Part shown: piece after piece, positions 8,741-23,049 of the stretch
Numbering within the stretch: the stretch's first letter is position 1
How the letters are laid out: each line of letters opens with the position of its first letter
NCBI RefSeq assembly: GCF_021730615.1
Contig: NZ_JAJLMN010000001.1
Coordinates: forward strand, 1,302,501-1,366,500
Source: Lichenibacterium dinghuense
GTDB lineage: Bacteria > Pseudomonadota > Alphaproteobacteria > Rhizobiales > Beijerinckiaceae
Reading direction: 5' to 3'
Length of the DNA stretch: 64,000 nucleotides
The notes under the pieces: model-generated
What the model was told of the DNA's origin: nothing
What the model saw: only the letters and a program-made list of their open reading frames with translations
The model's database searches: none
Made by a program: the position numbers and the translations under genes

Positions 8741-10252
8741 TCAAGCCGCCCGCACCTCGGCCGAGGCGCGGGCCCGGCAGCGGTTGCGCCCCTCCGCCTT
8801 GGCCCGATAGAGCGCGACATCGGCGTCGGCCAGCACGTCGCGCGCCGCCCCGCCCGCGGCGGGCCGGGCCGCCGCCACGCCGACGCTGATCGTCACCACC
8901 CCGCCGACGCCCGACGGGTGCGGCAGCGCCAGGCCTTCCACGGCGGCGCGCAGGTCCTCGGCGACCCGGAGGGCGCGCGCTTCGTCGCAGCCGGGGATCG
9001 TCACGGCGAACTCTTCCCCGCCCCAGCGGCCCGCCAGCCCGCCCCGCCGCCGCGCGCCCTCGTCGAGGCGCGCCGCTATGGCCTGGAGCACGAGGTCGCC
9101 CGCCGGATGGCCGAACAGGTCGTTGTAGGCCTTGAACGAGTCGGCATCGACCATCAGCACGGCGAGGGGCTCCCGCGATGCGGCGGCGCGGGCCCACTCC
9201 TCGGGCAGCGCGGCGTCGAAGCGGCGGCGGTTGGCGAGGCCGGTCAGGGCGTCGGTCGAGGCGAGGCGCCGGAGCTCCGCCTCGGCGGCGGCGCGGCGGC
9301 CGAGCTCGCGCGCGAGCGCCAGCGACAGGCCGAGGACGCCGAAGCACAGCAGCGTCAGGAGGCCGGCGATCGCGGCGGCGCGCCGCCACCAGGCGCTGTA
9401 GGGCCCCTCCCCGGCGACCTCGACGGCCTGGATCAGCGGCAGGTCGCCGACCCGGTGGAAGGAGATGACGCGGGGCAGGCCGTCGACCGGCGACGCGCCC
9501 TCGAAGGTGCCGTCGCGCGCCGCCCGCATGCGGTTGAAGCTGTCCCCGCCCCCCGCGAACATCCCCACGTCCCCCTCGTCCAGGGGCGCGCGGGTGATCA
9601 CCGTGCCGTCCGTGCGGAACAGCGTCACGGCGCTGCCGTCCCCGACGTGGAGGCCGGCGTAGAGCTTCGTGAGGTAGGCGACGTCGAGCGTGCCCACGGC
9701 GACGCCGGCGAAGGCGTCGTCGTCGTCGATGCGGCGGCTCAGGGCCACCACCCAGGCATCGCTCACGCGGGACCGGAAGGGCTTCGACACGTACAGGCCC
9801 ACGTCGTCGTTGCCGACGTGGACCCGGAAATAGTCGCGGTCCGCGAAGGACGCGCCGAGCTCGCCGACGTCGACCGACCGGGCGACGAGGCGGCCGTCGC
9901 GGTCGAGCACCATCATCATGCCGAAGCCCGGCGCCCGCATGGCGCCGTCGAACAGCACCGTGTCGCGCAGGCGCGGCGGCAGGGCCTGCACGTCGGGCAC
10001 GTCCCATTGTTCGGCCACGCCCTGCAGCGAGAAGTCGAGCAGCTCGATGTTGCGGTCGACCTCGCCGGCCACCGCCGCCGCGATGCTGTCGCCCGAAGCG
10101 CTCAGCACGCGCCCGACGTCGCGGTGCCACGCCGCCATCACGAAGGTGAAGACGAGGCAGATCGCCAGCAGCACCAGCGCGGTGAGGGCCGGCAGGGCGC
10201 CGCGGCCGGCGCCGGGCGCGAGGTCCGACCGGCGTCGCGTCGCGGCCGTCAT
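8741..10252 (-). CDS. Membrane-bound diguanylate cyclase with periplasmic sensor domain
   Basis: Predicted c-di-GMP synthase, 503 residues. It has two membrane helices (about residues 20-40 and 290-315) flanking a periplasmic dCache/PAS-like sensor region with the typical FADRDYFRVH and VSKPFRS motifs. A cytoplasmic GGDEF domain follows, with the intact catalytic motif GGEEF at residues 411-415. The inhibitory I-site RxxD is not present at the usual spacing before GGEEF, so product inhibition at that site is unlikely. The start has GAAGCGAG upstream; the frame extends to 10354 but that part looks non-coding. It stands alone and its ligand is unknown. Confidence 0.93.
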   Translation of the reverse strand: MTAATRRRSDLAPGAGRGALPALTALVLLAICLVFTFVMAAWHRDVGRVLSASGDSIAAAVAGEVDRNIELLDFSLQGVAEQWDVPDVQALPPRLRDTVLFDGAMRAPGFGMMMVLDRDGRLVARSVDVGELGASFADRDYFRVHVGNDDVGLYVSKPFRSRVSDAWVVALSRRIDDDDAFAGVAVGTLDVAYLTKLYAGLHVGDGSAVTLFRTDGTVITRAPLDEGDVGMFAGGGDSFNRMRAARDGTFEGASPVDGLPRVISFHRVGDLPLIQAVEVAGEGPYSAWWRRAAAIAGLLTLLCFGVLGLSLALARELGRRAAAEAELRRLASTDALTGLANRRRFDAALPEEWARAAASREPLAVLMVDADSFKAYNDLFGHPAGDLVLQAIAARLDEGARRRGGLAGRWGGEEFAVTIPGCDEARALRVAEDLRAAVEGLALPHPSGVGGVVTISVGVAAARPAAGGAARDVLADADVALYRAKAEGRNRCRARASAEVRAA

Positions 10253-16953: not shown

Positions 16954-17655
16954 TCAGGACAGCAGCCCGGCCAGGACGTTGATCGTGAGCGCCAGGATCA
17001 CCGTGTTGAAGGTGAAGGCCACGAGCCCGTGCACGGTGCCGATGCGGCGCATGCGCTTCGAGGTGAACTCCACATCGGCGGTCTGCGACGCGACGCCGAT
17101 CACCACGGCGAAGTGGATGAAGTCCCAGTAGTCGGGCGCGTCGTCGTCCGGGAAGCGCAGCCCGCCCTGCTGCAGCGTGGCCGGATCGCCGTCGTCGTCC
17201 GGCGCGTAATATTCGTGGGCGTAGTGCAGCGCGAAGATGAGCTGCGTGACGAACCACGAGGCCGACACGCTGACGAAGGCCAGGGCCACGCGCAGGACCT
17301 CGTCGAGTCCCCGCGCGCCCTTGGCGAAGGACAGCTCCACCGCCACCGCGGCGAGCGATGCCGCCGACAGGGCCAGCACCAGGCCGAGGATGATGCCCTG
17401 GCCCTCGTCCTGCCGCGCCGCGGCGTCCCGGATGAAGGGCGCGCCGCGCCGCGCCACGTGCCGCAGCGTCGTCGCAACATAGGCGATGCAGCCGACGTCC
17501 CAGCCCAGGATGCCCCGCGTCGGCCCGTCGAGGCCGGAGGGGACCAGCGCGAGGACGCCCCAGACCGCGAGGCTCGACGCGAAGCAGGCGAGGAGGCGCG
17601 GGCGCGAGCGGAACGGGCCGAGGTAGCGGAGGGGCGAACGGCGGGGAGCGGCCAT
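16954..17655 (-). CDS. DUF1345 membrane protein
   Basis: A 233-residue inner membrane protein of the DUF1345 family. About five hydrophobic segments are visible (for example LLACFASSLAVWGVLALV, GIILGLVLALSAASLAAVAV, VALAFVSVSASWFVTQLIFAL). The family motif FALHYAHEYYAP lies near residue 145 and DYWDFIHFAVVIGVASQTADV near 180. Biochemical function is unknown. It is convergent with the YciI gene, with stops five bases apart, and has no partner in its own direction. Confidence 0.88.
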   Translation of the reverse strand: MAAPRRSPLRYLGPFRSRPRLLACFASSLAVWGVLALVPSGLDGPTRGILGWDVGCIAYVATTLRHVARRGAPFIRDAAARQDEGQGIILGLVLALSAASLAAVAVELSFAKGARGLDEVLRVALAFVSVSASWFVTQLIFALHYAHEYYAPDDDGDPATLQQGGLRFPDDDAPDYWDFIHFAVVIGVASQTADVEFTSKRMRRIGTVHGLVAFTFNTVILALTINVLAGLLS

Positions 17656-17846
17656 GGTCGACGCTCATGGCCCGGCGCCGGGGCCGGCGCAACGTCGCAC
17701 GGGACATTTGAACCGGCGCCCCCTCTCCGTCGCCGGCCGGAGCGCCCGCGACCGGCAGCGCGATTCTGTCATTTGCGTGTCTCCTTTACGCCGTCGCAAC
17801 CCGTTTGAGATCAGTTGACCCGCGTCCATGGGCCGCGGGAGCCGCA

Positions 17847-18671
17847 ATGCAACTCAGTCGAGACGAAGTCTTTCGCATCTTCAACGTGCGTGATCGGGGT
17901 GGTGATCGCAGGCCTTTGATGTTCGCCCATGGTTTCGGCTGCGATCAAAGCATGTGGGATGCGGTCGCTCCGGCGTTCGAAGACGAGTACAGGGTCGTCC
18001 TGTTCGACCACGTCGGCGCGGGCGCGTCCGATCCGAGCGCCTATGACCGGGTCCGGCATTCCGACCTCGCCGGCTATGCCGCGGACGTCAACGCCATCTG
18101 CGACGCGCTCGATCTCCGAAACGTCACCTTCGTCGGGCATTCGGTGAGCGCGACGATCGGCGTCCTGGCCGCGATCCGGCGGCCCGGGCGCTTCTCCGAT
18201 CTGGTGCTGATCGGGCCGTCCCCGTGCTACCTCAACGACGGCGACTACCGCGGCGGCTTCGACCGGTCGACGCTCGACGAGCTGCTCGACGTCATGGACA
18301 GCAACTTCCTGGGCTGGTCCAGCGCGATCGCCCCAACCATCATGGGCAACGCCGACCGGCCGGAGCTCGGGACCCGCCTGGCCGAGAGCTTCTGCCGCGC
18401 CGACCCGGTCATCGTCAGGCAGTTCGCCCGCGTCACCTTCTTCTCGGACAACCGGGCCGACCTGCCCGGATCGCGGACGCCCGCCCTCATCCTGCAGTGC
18501 GCCGACGACGTCATCGCGCCCGATTCCGTCGGCGCCTACATGCACGAACACCTGCCCAACAGCCGGCTCCTCCGCCTCAAGGCCAGCGGCCACTGCCCCC
18601 ACGTGAGCGACCCCGACGAGGTGATCGCCGTCATGAAGGGCCATCTCCGGGACGTGGCGGCCCACCCATGA
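17847..18671 (+). CDS. RsbQ-like alpha/beta hydrolase
   Basis: A 274-residue hydrolase of the RsbQ type. The catalytic triad is readable at almost the same numbers as Bacillus RsbQ (Ser96/Asp219/His247 in the known protein): Ser99 in VGHSVSA, Asp221 in CADDVIAP and His249 in GHCPHVSDPD. The N-terminus FNVRDRGG...FAHGFGCDQSMWD also fits. In Bacillus, RsbQ is required for the PAS-phosphatase RsbP to sense energy stress. Here the stop overlaps (ATGA) the start of a PAS-PAS-GGDEF-EAL gene, so the hydrolase probably serves that sensor. GGGAG precedes the chosen ATG. Confidence 0.92.
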   Translation: MQLSRDEVFRIFNVRDRGGDRRPLMFAHGFGCDQSMWDAVAPAFEDEYRVVLFDHVGAGASDPSAYDRVRHSDLAGYAADVNAICDALDLRNVTFVGHSVSATIGVLAAIRRPGRFSDLVLIGPSPCYLNDGDYRGGFDRSTLDELLDVMDSNFLGWSSAIAPTIMGNADRPELGTRLAESFCRADPVIVRQFARVTFFSDNRADLPGSRTPALILQCADDVIAPDSVGAYMHEHLPNSRLLRLKASGHCPHVSDPDEVIAVMKGHLRDVAAHP

Positions 18672-20833
18672 CCATGGCCGTGCTTCCGATCCCGGACCCG
18701 GCCTGCATCGAGCGCCTGTTCTTCCAGGACGCGCCCTGCGGCCTCTTCCTCACCGACGAGGCGGGCGTCATCCGCGCCGTCAGCGACACCATGCTGGCCT
18801 GGATGGAGCGGACGCGGGACGAGGTCGTCGGCCGGCTCCGCTTCCAGGACACGTTGACGGCCGCCGGCCGGATCTACGCGGAGACGCACCTGCTGCCGAT
18901 GCTGCGGAAGCGGCGCGGCTTCCAGGAGATCGCGATGACGCTGCGCAGCCCGAGCGGCATCGAGCGCTCCGTCCTCGTCACGGCCGCCGGCCGGGGCGGG
19001 AGCGACGGATCGGACGCGGCGGCCTTCGTGGTCTACGGCGCCGAGCATCGGCGCCTCTACGAGCGCGAGCTGGCCGCCATGCGGGCCGCCGCCCAGACCC
19101 GCATTTGCTGGCTGCGCCAGGTGGAGACCATGGCCGGGATCGGCGCGTGGACGCTGGACCTGTCCACGCGCCGCCTCACCTGGTCGGATCAGATGTTCGC
19201 GCTGCACGACTGGCCGGTCGGCGACGCTCCCGACCTCGACGGGCTGCTGGCCCTGCTCGACGGTCCCTGGCGCGACAGGCTCGCGTCGGACATCCGGCAC
19301 ACGGTCGAGACGGCGAGCCCGCTGGACGTCGAGGTCGAGATGGTGACGGCCCGCGGGCGTCGGCGCGTGGTCCACGCCGTGGCCGAGCTGGAGAAGGAAG
19401 GCGGGAAGCCCTGCCGCCTCGTCGGCGTCCTGCAGGACGTCACGGAACGGCACGAAGACCAGAAGCGCCTGTGGCGCGGCGCCCACATCGACGACCTGTC
19501 CGGCGCCGCCAACCGGAGCTGGTTCCAGCGGGAGCAGGTCGAGGCGCTCGTCCGGGCCAAGCGCGACAGGGCCGCGTTGACGCTGCTCCTGCTCGACCTC
19601 GACGGGTTCAAGGAGGTGAACGACACGCTCGGCCATCAGGCCGGGGATCAGGTCATCCGGACGGTCGCGCAGCGCATCCGCGATCTCCTGCCGGCCGAGG
19701 CCTTCTTCGCGCGGCTCGGCGGGGATGAGTTCGCGATCCTGCTGCCGTCCTCCACGGGCGACGGAGCCGGCGTCGAGCGCCTCGCCGGGGAGATCCAGGA
19801 CCGGGTGCGGGCGCCGATCCCTCACGAGATGCACCGCGCCAGCGTGACGGTGTCGATCGGCGCCGCGAGCTTCCCGGCCGACGCGGAGCAGCCGACCGAC
19901 CTGTTCAAATGCGCCGACATGGCGCTCTACAAGGTCAAGCGCTCCGGGCGCGGGGCGCTCGGCCGGTTCAGTTCCGAACTCCATTCCGTCTTCGACGCGC
20001 GCCGCGCCGCGATCGAGAAGGTGCGATGCGCCGCCCGCGACGGCCGGATCGTCCCGTTCTACCAGCCCAAGGTCAGGCTCGCGGATCGGACGTCCTGCGG
20101 CCACGAGGCGCTGGTCCGCATCACGAACCCGGACGGCACCGTCAGCGGCCCCGCCGACTTCGCCCAGGCCTTCGACGACGCCGAGGCCGCGAGGACCATG
20201 GACGGGCGAGTGCTGGAGGGCGTGGTCCGCGATCTCGCGCGCTGGCGCGCGGCGGGCCTGAGCCCCGGGCCGATCAGCCTCAACGTCTCGGAAGCGAGCC
20301 TGCAGGGCGGGTATGTGGACCGCCTGCTGGCGCTCCTCGCCGAGGCCGATCTGCCGGCCTCCGCGATCGAGGTCGAGATCGTGGAAACGGTGCTGCTCGG
20401 GACGGACTCGAGGACGACGGAGCCGCTGTTCGCCAAACTGCACCGGGCCGGGATCTCGATCGCCCTGGACGATTTCGGCACCGGCTTCGCCTCGCTGTCG
20501 CACCTGCGCGACCTGCCCATCGACACCCTGAAGCTCGACAAATCCTTCGTGCTCGGCCTCGCCGCGAAGCCGCAAAACCGCGCCATCGTCCGCTCGGTCG
20601 TGGACCTGGCCCACAACCTGTGCCTCAGCGTCGTGGCGGAGGGGATCGAGACGGAGGAGGCCTGCGCGTTCCTCCGAGCCACGGGCTGCGACGCCGGCCA
20701 GGGATTCCTGTTCGGCGCCGCCCTGCCGTTCAACGACATGTTCGCAGGCCCATGCGACGCTGCCGGCCTCGGCGGGGTGGAGGGCGCCCCGCGGAGCGGG
20801 AGCGCCGAGCCGGCGAGGCCGGCCTCGGTCTGA
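18668..20833 (+). CDS. PAS-PAS-GGDEF-EAL c-di-GMP turnover protein
   Basis: A 721-residue soluble signalling protein. The first PAS domain lies at about residues 8-130 (FQDAPCGLFLTDEAGVIRAV) and a second PAS/PAC at about 150-275 (GIGAWTLDLSTRRLTWSDQMF, VGVLQDVTER). The GGDEF domain has an intact GGDEF at 351-355. The EAL domain retains YQPKV, EALVR (Glu480), the asparagine of SLNVSEASL, DDFGTGF (601-602), KLDKSF and EGIETEE, so both activities are possible. No membrane segment is visible. The start overlaps the RsbQ-like gene by four bases. Regulation by a hydrolase-derived ligand binding a PAS domain is inferred from RsbQ-RsbP. Confidence 0.95.
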   Translation: MTMAVLPIPDPACIERLFFQDAPCGLFLTDEAGVIRAVSDTMLAWMERTRDEVVGRLRFQDTLTAAGRIYAETHLLPMLRKRRGFQEIAMTLRSPSGIERSVLVTAAGRGGSDGSDAAAFVVYGAEHRRLYERELAAMRAAAQTRICWLRQVETMAGIGAWTLDLSTRRLTWSDQMFALHDWPVGDAPDLDGLLALLDGPWRDRLASDIRHTVETASPLDVEVEMVTARGRRRVVHAVAELEKEGGKPCRLVGVLQDVTERHEDQKRLWRGAHIDDLSGAANRSWFQREQVEALVRAKRDRAALTLLLLDLDGFKEVNDTLGHQAGDQVIRTVAQRIRDLLPAEAFFARLGGDEFAILLPSSTGDGAGVERLAGEIQDRVRAPIPHEMHRASVTVSIGAASFPADAEQPTDLFKCADMALYKVKRSGRGALGRFSSELHSVFDARRAAIEKVRCAARDGRIVPFYQPKVRLADRTSCGHEALVRITNPDGTVSGPADFAQAFDDAEAARTMDGRVLEGVVRDLARWRAAGLSPGPISLNVSEASLQGGYVDRLLALLAEADLPASAIEVEIVETVLLGTDSRTTEPLFAKLHRAGISIALDDFGTGFASLSHLRDLPIDTLKLDKSFVLGLAAKPQNRAIVRSVVDLAHNLCLSVVAEGIETEEACAFLRATGCDAGQGFLFGAALPFNDMFAGPCDAAGLGGVEGAPRSGSAEPARPASV

Positions 20834-20866
20834 CGCGATCCGTGGGATGGACGGACCGGCGGTCCG

Positions 20867-21670
20867 CTATCCCGCGATCCTCGGCTCCGCGCGGCTCGGC
20901 CCCGGCAGCGCGGCGTCGCCGCTGCCGTCCTTCAGCGCCACGCCGGTGAGCGACAGCGCGAGGGCCTGGTCGGCCAGCCAGGCGATCGTGTGCGCGGCGG
21001 CCTCCGGCGCGAGCCCGCACGGGCGGATGTTGGACACGCAGTTGCGGGCCTCGTCGGTGAGGCCGACCCGCGGGCCGAAGGTGAGGTAGGCGCCGAGGCT
21101 GTCGGCCGCCGACAGGCCCGGCCGCTCGCCGATCAGCACCACGACGAGCCGGACGCCGAGGATCGCGCCGACCTCGTCGCCGAGCGCCACGCGCCCCTGC
21201 CGCGCCAGCACGACGGGGGCGAGGCGGCGCGGCGCCAGCCGCGGCAGCAGCGCGCCGAGCAGCGGCAGGGCGTTGGCGTCGACCGCGGAGGCCGACAGCC
21301 CGTCCGCCACCACGACGCAGACCTCGGCGTCCGACGCACCGATGCCCCCGAGCAGCGCCCGGCTGCGGGCCGACAGGCGGCGGCCGAAGTCGGGGCGGCG
21401 CAGGTAGGTGGCGCGGTCGGGCGCGGCGCTCTCGACCTCGACGGCCTCGCGCCCGAGCGCCCGGAGCCCCGCCCGCAGCGCGTCGAGGTCCGCCGCCGCG
21501 TGGACGGCGTCGCGCGCCCGCGCGTGGGCGAGGCCGAGCTTGAGCATCTCGCGGGTGGGCAGCGACGCCCCGGAGCGGCCGAGCGCGAGCCGCGCCGGCG
21601 TGAGGGCGGCGAGCTCGCCCCAAGGATCGGGCGTGACGGGCGCGGGCGGCCGGGCGGCCGGCGCGCTCAC
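20867..21670 (-). CDS. eutC: Ethanolamine ammonia-lyase small subunit
   Basis: Light chain of adenosylcobalamin-dependent ethanolamine ammonia-lyase, 267 residues. Family landmarks are [23 protein letters not shown] near residue 28, [11 protein letters not shown] near 90, [12 protein letters not shown] near 120, and [24 protein letters not shown] with RNCVSNIRP near 180-215. EutC contributes part of the cobalamin pocket. Its ATG overlaps the eutB stop, giving coupled translation and an equimolar complex. The enzyme splits ethanolamine into acetaldehyde and ammonia. Confidence 0.97.
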
Positions 21671-23049
21671 GCGGCCTCCGGTCGGGCGAGCAGGGGGTGC
21701 GAGCCCGTGGGCGCCCGGAGCCGCCCGTCCGGCCCGGTGATGCCCATGCGCAGCAGCCAGGCCTCGAACTCCGGCGCGCGCTTCACGCCCAGCGCGTCGC
21801 GCAGGTAGAGCTGGTCGTGGAAGGACGTCGACTGGTAGTTCAGCATCACGTCATCGGCTCCCGGCACGCCCATGATGTAGGTGACGCCAGCGGCGGCCAG
21901 CAGCGTCATCAGCGCGTCCATGTCGTCCGCGTCGGCCTCGGCGTGGTTGGTGTAGCAGACGTCGCAGCCCATCGGCAGGCCCATCAGCTTGCCGCAGAAG
22001 TGGTCCTCCAGCCCGGCGCGGGTGATCTGCTTGCCGTCGTAGAGGTATTCGGGCCCGATGAAGCCCACCACCGTGTTGACGAGCAGCGGGTCGAAGGCGC
22101 GCGCCACCGCGTAGGCGCGGGCCTCGAGGGTCTGCTGGTCGACCCCGTGATGCGCCCCGGCCGACAGGGCCGAGCCCTGGCCGGTCTCGAAATACATCAC
22201 GTTCCGCCCGACCGTGCCGCGCTTGAGGCTCAGCCCGGCCTCGTGCGCTTCGCGCAGCAGCCCGAGCGTCACGCCGAACGAGGCGTTGGCGGCCTCGGTG
22301 CCGGCGATCGACTGGAACACGAGGTCGACCGGCGCGCCGGCCTCGATCAGCCCGATCGTGGTGGTGGCGTGGGTCAGCACGCAGCTCTGGGTCGGGATGG
22401 CGTGGCGCGCGATCACGTCGTCGAGGAGGTGGCACAGGCGCGCCAGCACGGCGGGCGCGTCGGAGGCCGGGTTGATGCCGATCACGGCGTCGCCGCAGCC
22501 GTAGAGCAGACCCTCCGCCACCGCGGCCGCGATCCCGTCCGGGTCGTCGGTCGGGTGGTTCGGCTGCAGCCGCACCGCCATGGTGCCGGGCAGCCCGATC
22601 GTGTTGCGGAAGCGCGTGACGACCCCGCACTTCTTCGCCGCCAGGATGAGGTCCTGGTTGCGCATGAGCTTGGACACCGCCGCCGCCATCTCGGGCGTCA
22701 CCCCCGGCGCGACCCGCGCCAGCATGGCCGGGCTCGCGAGGTCGGACAGGAGCCAGTCGCGGAAGTCTCCCACCGTGAGGTGGGAGACCGGCGCGAAGGC
22801 GGCCTCGTCGTGTGTGTCGACGATGAGCCGGGTGACGTCGTCCTCCTCGTAGGGGATCACCGGCCGCGCCAGGAAGGTCCTGAGCGGCAGGTCGGCGAGG
22901 CAGTGGCGCGCCGCCAGCCCCTCCTCGGCCGAGCCCGCCGCGATGCCGGCCAGCAGGTCGCCCGAGCGGAGCGGCGTCGCCTTGGCCATCAGGTCCTTGA
23001 GGTCGGCGAAGGCCCAGGTGGTCCGGCCGACCGCGTGGGAATAGGCCAT
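21667..23049 (-). CDS. eutB: Ethanolamine ammonia-lyase large subunit
   Basis: Catalytic TIM-barrel subunit, 460 residues, close to the usual length. Recognisable segments are [23 protein letters not shown] near residue 150, [12 protein letters not shown] near 185, [14 protein letters not shown] near 225, [15 protein letters not shown] near 250 and [17 protein letters not shown] near 365. Together with EutC it needs adenosylcobalamin. No microcompartment shell, ethanolamine transporter, EutA reactivase or acetaldehyde dehydrogenase gene is next to it, so this is the minimal eutBC form typical of proteobacteria without a metabolosome. No B12-box-like leader was seen upstream. Confidence 0.97.

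Follow-up and report, generated by a model that had tools for sequence, protein, structure and literature searches.

The 64,000-nucleotide stretch of Lichenibacterium dinghuense DNA analysed here (contig NZ_JAJLMN010000001.1, positions 1,302,501 to 1,366,500; hereafter the window, position 1 being its first letter) carries two overlapping genes, encoding an RsbQ-type alpha/beta hydrolase and a 721-residue protein in which PAS domains precede a GGDEF and an EAL domain. Judged from its sequence, this pair is almost certainly an RsbQ-PAS module and makes a sound new case of such a module with a cyclic di-GMP (c-di-GMP) output; it also appears likely that c-di-GMP turnover by the 721-residue protein is truly under the control of the hydrolase. 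The module itself has a history. Indeed, a census published in 2011 described 45 pairs of RsbQ and RsbP-type PAS proteins in which the output is a phosphatase, a kinase or a cyclase, three of the cyclases carrying an added phosphodiesterase domain (Nadezhdin, Brody and Price 2011, PMC3183031, drawn on throughout from part of its text). Since both the module and this domain layout have thus been in print since 2011 (PMC3183031), the locus is ordinary as a genomic discovery. Our analysis goes beyond the census by more loci, by the exchange of outputs seen on the hydrolase tree and by one Ser/Thr-kinase output. An initial annotation, made from the letters alone, had set the start of the pair at 17847 and its end at 20833, both of which are exact, and had described an ATGA overlap of the hydrolase with its partner gene, which we find as follows:

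17847..18671, plus strand: RsbQ-type alpha/beta hydrolase gene, 274 amino acids (best PDB match RsbQ 1wom; Pfam Abhydrolase_1).
18668..20833, plus strand: PAS-PAS-GGDEF-EAL gene, 721 amino acids (open reading frame and Pfam domains).
18668..18671, plus strand: ATGA stop-start overlap of both genes, the start codon of the second overlapping the stop codon of the first.

The same annotation had called the hydrolase RsbQ-like, with Ser99, Asp221 and His249 numbered nearly as in RsbQ, and both statements are borne out. Among PDB sequences, Bacillus subtilis RsbQ (1wom) was the best match (E 1.8e-97), followed by an Oleispira protein (3qvm, 2.7e-74) and then by plant HTL/KAI2/D14 proteins and their relatives (E about 1e-59 to 1e-43). 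Pfam recognized Abhydrolase_1 (8.6e-23), and among 25 of 32 NCBIfam families none matched at its curated cut-off. With a residue offset derived by hand from the PDB-match alignment, and with RsbQ numbered as in PMC3183031, the catalytic residues are placed at:

18141..18143, plus strand: catalytic Ser99 (RsbQ S96), by alignment; Ser in all 103 of the other aligned hydrolases.
18507..18509, plus strand: catalytic Asp221 (RsbQ D219), by alignment; Asp in 103 of 103 others.
18591..18593, plus strand: catalytic His249 (RsbQ H247), by alignment; His in 103 of 103 others.

At the pocket and gate of the hydrolase, F30, V100, F138 and F198 correspond to RsbQ F27, V97, F136 and F196. Both V100 and F198 are invariant in the 103 other hydrolases, F138 is kept in 101, and F30 is retained in 84, with Tyr in its place in 16. 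As read from the alignment, the triad and gate of an RsbQ-type hydrolase are complete. No second copy occurs in the genome, the next best of 13 matches reaching 7.3e-11 vs 8.7e-188 for the hydrolase itself.

The partner protein is composed of the following elements:

18728..19039, plus strand: RsbP-type PAS1, residues 21-124 (PAS_9; AlphaFold block with a predicted local distance difference test score, pLDDT, of 89-96 over residues 21-110).
18866..18898, plus strand: F-alpha region of PAS1, residues 67-77, with Tyr70 (F55) and His74 (Y59) as RsbQ-contact equivalents (numbering by spacing; RsbP roles from PMC3183031).
19040..19168, plus strand: helix predicted to follow PAS1, over residues 125-167 (block pLDDT declining from 86 to 53), which starts with RRLYEREL and has no DIT motif.
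19175..19456, plus strand: probable PAS2, residues 170-263, ending with DVTER (weak Pfam support).
19481..19951, plus strand: GGDEF domain, residues 272-428, GGDEF motif intact, no inhibitory site (I-site).
20021..20716, plus strand: EAL domain, residues 452-683, catalytic motifs intact (matches PA0575, MorA, PA0861 and DosP).

On the whole protein, Pfam returned EAL (3.3e-61), GGDEF (6.5e-41), PAS_9 (1.4e-6, residues 23-111) and PAS_4 (6e-6, residues 199-263), and an AlphaFold model built from 28 sequences reached a mean pLDDT of 74.2 and a predicted template modelling score of 0.47. The two PAS domains of the initial annotation fared differently, the first being firm and modelled at pLDDT 89-96, and the second probable only. 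Indeed, PAS2 scores 26.9 bits with PAS_4 in the context of the whole protein, above the cut-off of 23.1, and falls below the cut-offs when its region is scanned alone (PAS_3 23.2 vs 25.6 bits; PAS_4 21.1 vs 23.1). Its AlphaFold models are of low confidence, a single-sequence model having a PAS-like order of strands and helices at a mean pLDDT of 47. The intact GGDEF and EAL motifs announced in the same annotation were recovered by a motif check based on the residues that we take to be catalytic or inhibitory, and the RxxD of the I-site, at its presumed position, is absent from the GGDEF domain. These catalytic motifs are largely kept in four relatives of the same layout (L108, L124, L125 and L049), the exceptions being EVL in place of EAL in L049 and an end ahead of the last motif in L124; in L108, from the same genus, the whole layout is kept at 66% identity. 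No strongly hydrophobic segment was found in the partner, whose Kyte-Doolittle mean over 19 residues peaks at 1.5, around residue 639 within the EAL domain. Its nearest solved relatives are GGDEF-EAL proteins including PA0575, MorA, the PAS-GGDEF-EAL protein PA0861, which we take to be RbdA, and DosP. Across the genome, 33 GGDEF matches were counted, some of them partial, and the RsbP-type PAS1 used as a query found this locus alone at E 0.01. The proposed swap of the PPM phosphatase output of RsbP for c-di-GMP domains is thus supported by a GGDEF-EAL pair lying downstream of an RsbP-type PAS domain.

Assignment of PAS1 to the RsbP class relies on its position and, with a mixed outcome, on its residues. 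As in the module class, it is encoded directly downstream of an RsbQ-type gene and is N-terminal in its own protein. Nine residues have been described as setting RsbQ-linked PAS domains apart (C10, L13, L48, Q53, F55, C56, Y59, E72 and P86), these domains lack a DIT motif, and the F55A substitution in RsbP-PAS disrupts RsbQ binding and gives a null phenotype (PMC3183031). When these RsbP numbers are placed on PAS1 by spacing, without the RsbP sequence itself, PAS1 has the class residue at C10, L48 and E72, and carries Arg, Tyr and His in place of Q53, F55 and Y59. Because these three are the commonest residues at their positions in 101 relatives (Arg in 67, Tyr in 48 and His in 81, respectively), PAS1 fits the class there as well. 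The conserved P62, which is outside the nine, is Pro in PAS1, and the pattern D[IVL]T[ED] occurs at residues 81-135 in none of 102 partner proteins, that of the window included.

Conserved adjacency, on which the initial annotation had made its reading hinge, was examined in 106 loci, comprising the best 80 of 272 candidates and 26 further regions from searches of overlapping sets of 41, 298 and 385 genomes. These loci were picked by closeness of the hydrolase, so that the sample consists of close relatives, and some are near copies or come from possibly close genomes and hence are not all independent. With the partner sought in same-strand frames starting no more than about 600 bases past the hydrolase stop, an RsbP-type PAS domain was found downstream in 101 of the 106 loci, in several phyla; one of the two refuting conditions named in that annotation, a lack of conserved adjacency, therefore does not apply. 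The five misses are two Pontibacter loci with no such PAS (L056 and L081), a single open reading frame (L083) and two contig ends (L132 and L133). In 98 of 101 pairs (window in, L126 out), the start codon of the second gene lies -20 to +30 bases from the hydrolase stop, and 24 of these 101 have the -4 overlap with an in-frame start. Distances between hydrolases correlate with those between PAS domains (r 0.84 over 101 pairs, the maximum of 999 permutations being 0.23). At E 1e-60, the family search found the module in 20 of 298 genomes and the class search in 6 of 385, its own genome counted, and its distribution within the sampled genomes is sporadic.

Two candidate fusions were set aside. 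In L083, hydrolase, PAS, kinase and receiver (domains by eye) share one open reading frame, and a frame change is probable, since its hydrolase ends differently from related ones and the sequence comes from a metagenome-assembled genome. In L066, the extra length is only an upstream open frame (by eye). Separately, L126 (genome G275, same family as the window), although one of the 101, has an in-frame stop in the hydrolase and a PAS-PAS frame that ends early; beyond it lies another frame, whose end is EAL-like.

The outputs carried by the partners are diverse. Among 102 downstream proteins including that of the window, Pfam at E 0.001 found SpoIIE-type phosphatase domains in 41, HisKA in 41, GGDEF in 10, EAL in 5, and Pkinase and HWE kinase in 1 each; a GGDEF- or EAL-like frame was also seen by eye after the break in L084 and L126. 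In Nannocystis bainbridge (L006:6793-8589, plus strand), the PAS domain is fused to a Hanks-type Ser/Thr kinase (Pkinase 2.1e-38), an output outside the three classes given in the parts of the 2011 census used here (PMC3183031). Five further partners (L021, L038, L046, L071 and L075) have a PAS domain with little or nothing behind it in frame, L038 being without a Pfam match and L071 having a marginal HisKA match (0.0023), and are either stand-alone PAS proteins or truncated genes. In the family of the window, the 19 other loci (L108-L126) comprise 15 that group with the kinases, 3 with GGDEF-EAL (L108, L124 and L125) and 1 that is broken (L126). A quickly built tree comprised 104 hydrolases (L126, L132 and L133 left out), each labelled with the output assigned from the domain calls; on it, the six labels need 16 changes vs a shuffled mean of 46.9, and hence outputs cluster yet have been exchanged. 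For the GGDEF label, 6 changes were counted, just 1 of them forced by strongly supported branches, and long branches were flagged; a count of independent origins of the c-di-GMP output was therefore dropped.

Whatever the output, the start of the linker may be a shared element. The motif R..YE..L lies right after the PAS domain in 73 of 102 partners (first 170 residues), across phosphatase, kinase and cyclase outputs, a count biased upward by the PAS profile of the partner search, which was seeded with window residues 11-140 and hence included the RRLYEREL helix. Only two loci failed that search while being uncut and free of any frame oddity. Elsewhere in the 102 partners, R..YE..L has 0 matches across the remaining 32,630 residues, and in the 102-sequence alignment the R, E and L of this helix account for three of the six columns that hardly vary; the copy in the window is at 19049-19072. 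These observations fit a contact or coupling element that would be common to the class.

How the hydrolase would act on its partner is framed by two published models, in which it either makes a product and delivers it to the PAS domain or is itself the sensor and acts by contact (PMC3183031). We lean towards contact, since the hydrolase pocket is nearly fixed, PAS1 is variable and the post-PAS helix is conserved, and we hold it to be somewhat probable that the hydrolase is a sensor of this kind. Its active site would take up a small hydrophobic molecule, and the hydrolase would touch the F-alpha helix of PAS1 together with the R..YE..L helix behind; this contact would alter the geometry of the dimer and shift net c-di-GMP synthesis or hydrolysis. 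Such an arrangement may be compared with an AlphaFold2 model of two RsbP and two RsbQ chains, in which, according to the part of the source cited here, RsbQ sits between the PAS domains and the linkers (PMC12143880). As to the direction of the output, the sequence allows both; net phosphodiesterase activity, with the GGDEF domain as a GTP-binding regulator, seems slightly favoured over net cyclase activity.

Product delivery, which is Model 1 of Nadezhdin 2011 and the choice of the initial annotation, would have the hydrolase convert a substrate and pass the product to PAS1 as the true sensor; we consider it a serious, if doubtful, alternative. The unchanged triad in 103 of 103 relatives speaks for it. 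So does DosP, a protein of similar layout among the structure matches, whose heme PAS senses oxygen. Substitutions in the RsbQ triad moreover lead to a null phenotype (PMC3183031). Against it, PAS1 varies more than the hydrolase, identity to the next nearest relatives after L108 being 39% for the PAS domain vs 66% for the hydrolase. The hydrolase also matches the structures of KAI2 and D14, plant receptors that act by contact with their partners. In addition, no ligand of RsbP-PAS was known in 2011, as stated in the cited part of that paper (PMC3183031). A further explanation, that the hydrolase is a metabolic esterase merely co-transcribed with a protein whose PAS1 senses something else, would agree with the Pontibacter hydrolases and with a link to the partner that, in this pair, rests on sequence. 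It is made highly improbable by the presence of the same PAS class next door in 101 of 106 loci from several phyla and by an adjacency that spans phosphatase, histidine kinase, GGDEF and Ser/Thr kinase outputs. The GGDEF-EAL pair might also be catalytically silent and serve as a c-di-GMP receptor or in protein contacts as in LapD, whose GGDEF-EAL pair it resembles structurally. The checked catalytic motifs are intact in both domains, unlike those of LapD, and this possibility appears quite improbable.

Several observations nevertheless weigh against control of the partner by the hydrolase or against membership of PAS1 in the class. In the two Pontibacter loci, the hydrolase has no RsbP-type PAS within about 600 bases downstream, and the correlation of distances may be merely shared species history. 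Within the genus, only 2 of 6 sampled genomes have the pair, which therefore has no core function there. Three class positions of PAS1, again numbered by spacing, depart from its relatives: C56 is Ala (Y, H, W or F in 95 of 101), L13 is Phe (Leu in 63 of 101) and P86 is Ser (Pro in 83 of 101). To these are added the low identity of PAS1 noted above, only 39%, the weak support for PAS2 and the seeded profile behind the helix count.

Regarding its surroundings, the pair is flanked by genes of unrelated Pfam families on the opposite strand, DUF1345 upstream (16954-17655) and EutC/EutB downstream (20867-23049), and hence looks like a self-contained operon. A scan of 17600-20950 found no promoters or terminators (shuffles give 0.1 and 0.7). 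The window has a further GGDEF domain at 8780-9262 on the minus strand (155.7 bits), which is one of the 33 GGDEF matches of the genome.

Among known systems, the B. subtilis RsbQ-RsbP pair shares with this locus the hydrolase family, the triad, the gate residues, the gene order and the PAS class, and differs by its PPM phosphatase output, replaced here by GGDEF-EAL, and by the extra PAS domain probable here. E. coli DosP has the same PAS-PAS-GGDEF-EAL layout and was among the structure matches; its PAS1, in contrast, binds heme, and no RsbQ partner of DosP is known to us, no search for one having been made. Closest in layout is A1SX34 of Psychromonas ingrahamii, which has an RsbQ homologue immediately upstream, an N-terminal RsbP-type PAS, and a tandem cyclase and phosphodiesterase linked via a further, heterologous PAS (PMC3183031); its sequence is different, and the layouts are likened from the published description only. 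The signal sensed by RsbQ-RsbP was not known in 2011, according to the portion of the census used here (PMC3183031), and titles and abstract openings of later literature name no ligand. In the same kind of survey, no experimental work on a member of the class with a c-di-GMP output appeared, and no literature linking RsbQ, KAI2, bacteria and a PAS domain was found. As a c-di-GMP output is a direct enzymatic readout, the present pair could conveniently serve to find the ligand and to separate the two published models.

Finally, the plant receptors KAI2 and D14 have a homologous hydrolase (E about 1e-59 to 1e-43) and, unlike RsbQ-type proteins with their PAS partners, signal to F-box proteins. 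It is conceivable, though on balance unlikely, that the hydrolase described here is their bacterial counterpart, in which a lactone-like signal, hydrolysed slowly or merely bound, would alter how the protein holds PAS1 and the R..YE..L helix and, by this alone, switch between the making and breaking of c-di-GMP. Were this so, phosphatases, histidine kinases, cyclases and the Ser/Thr kinase of Nannocystis would all be driven in the same manner.

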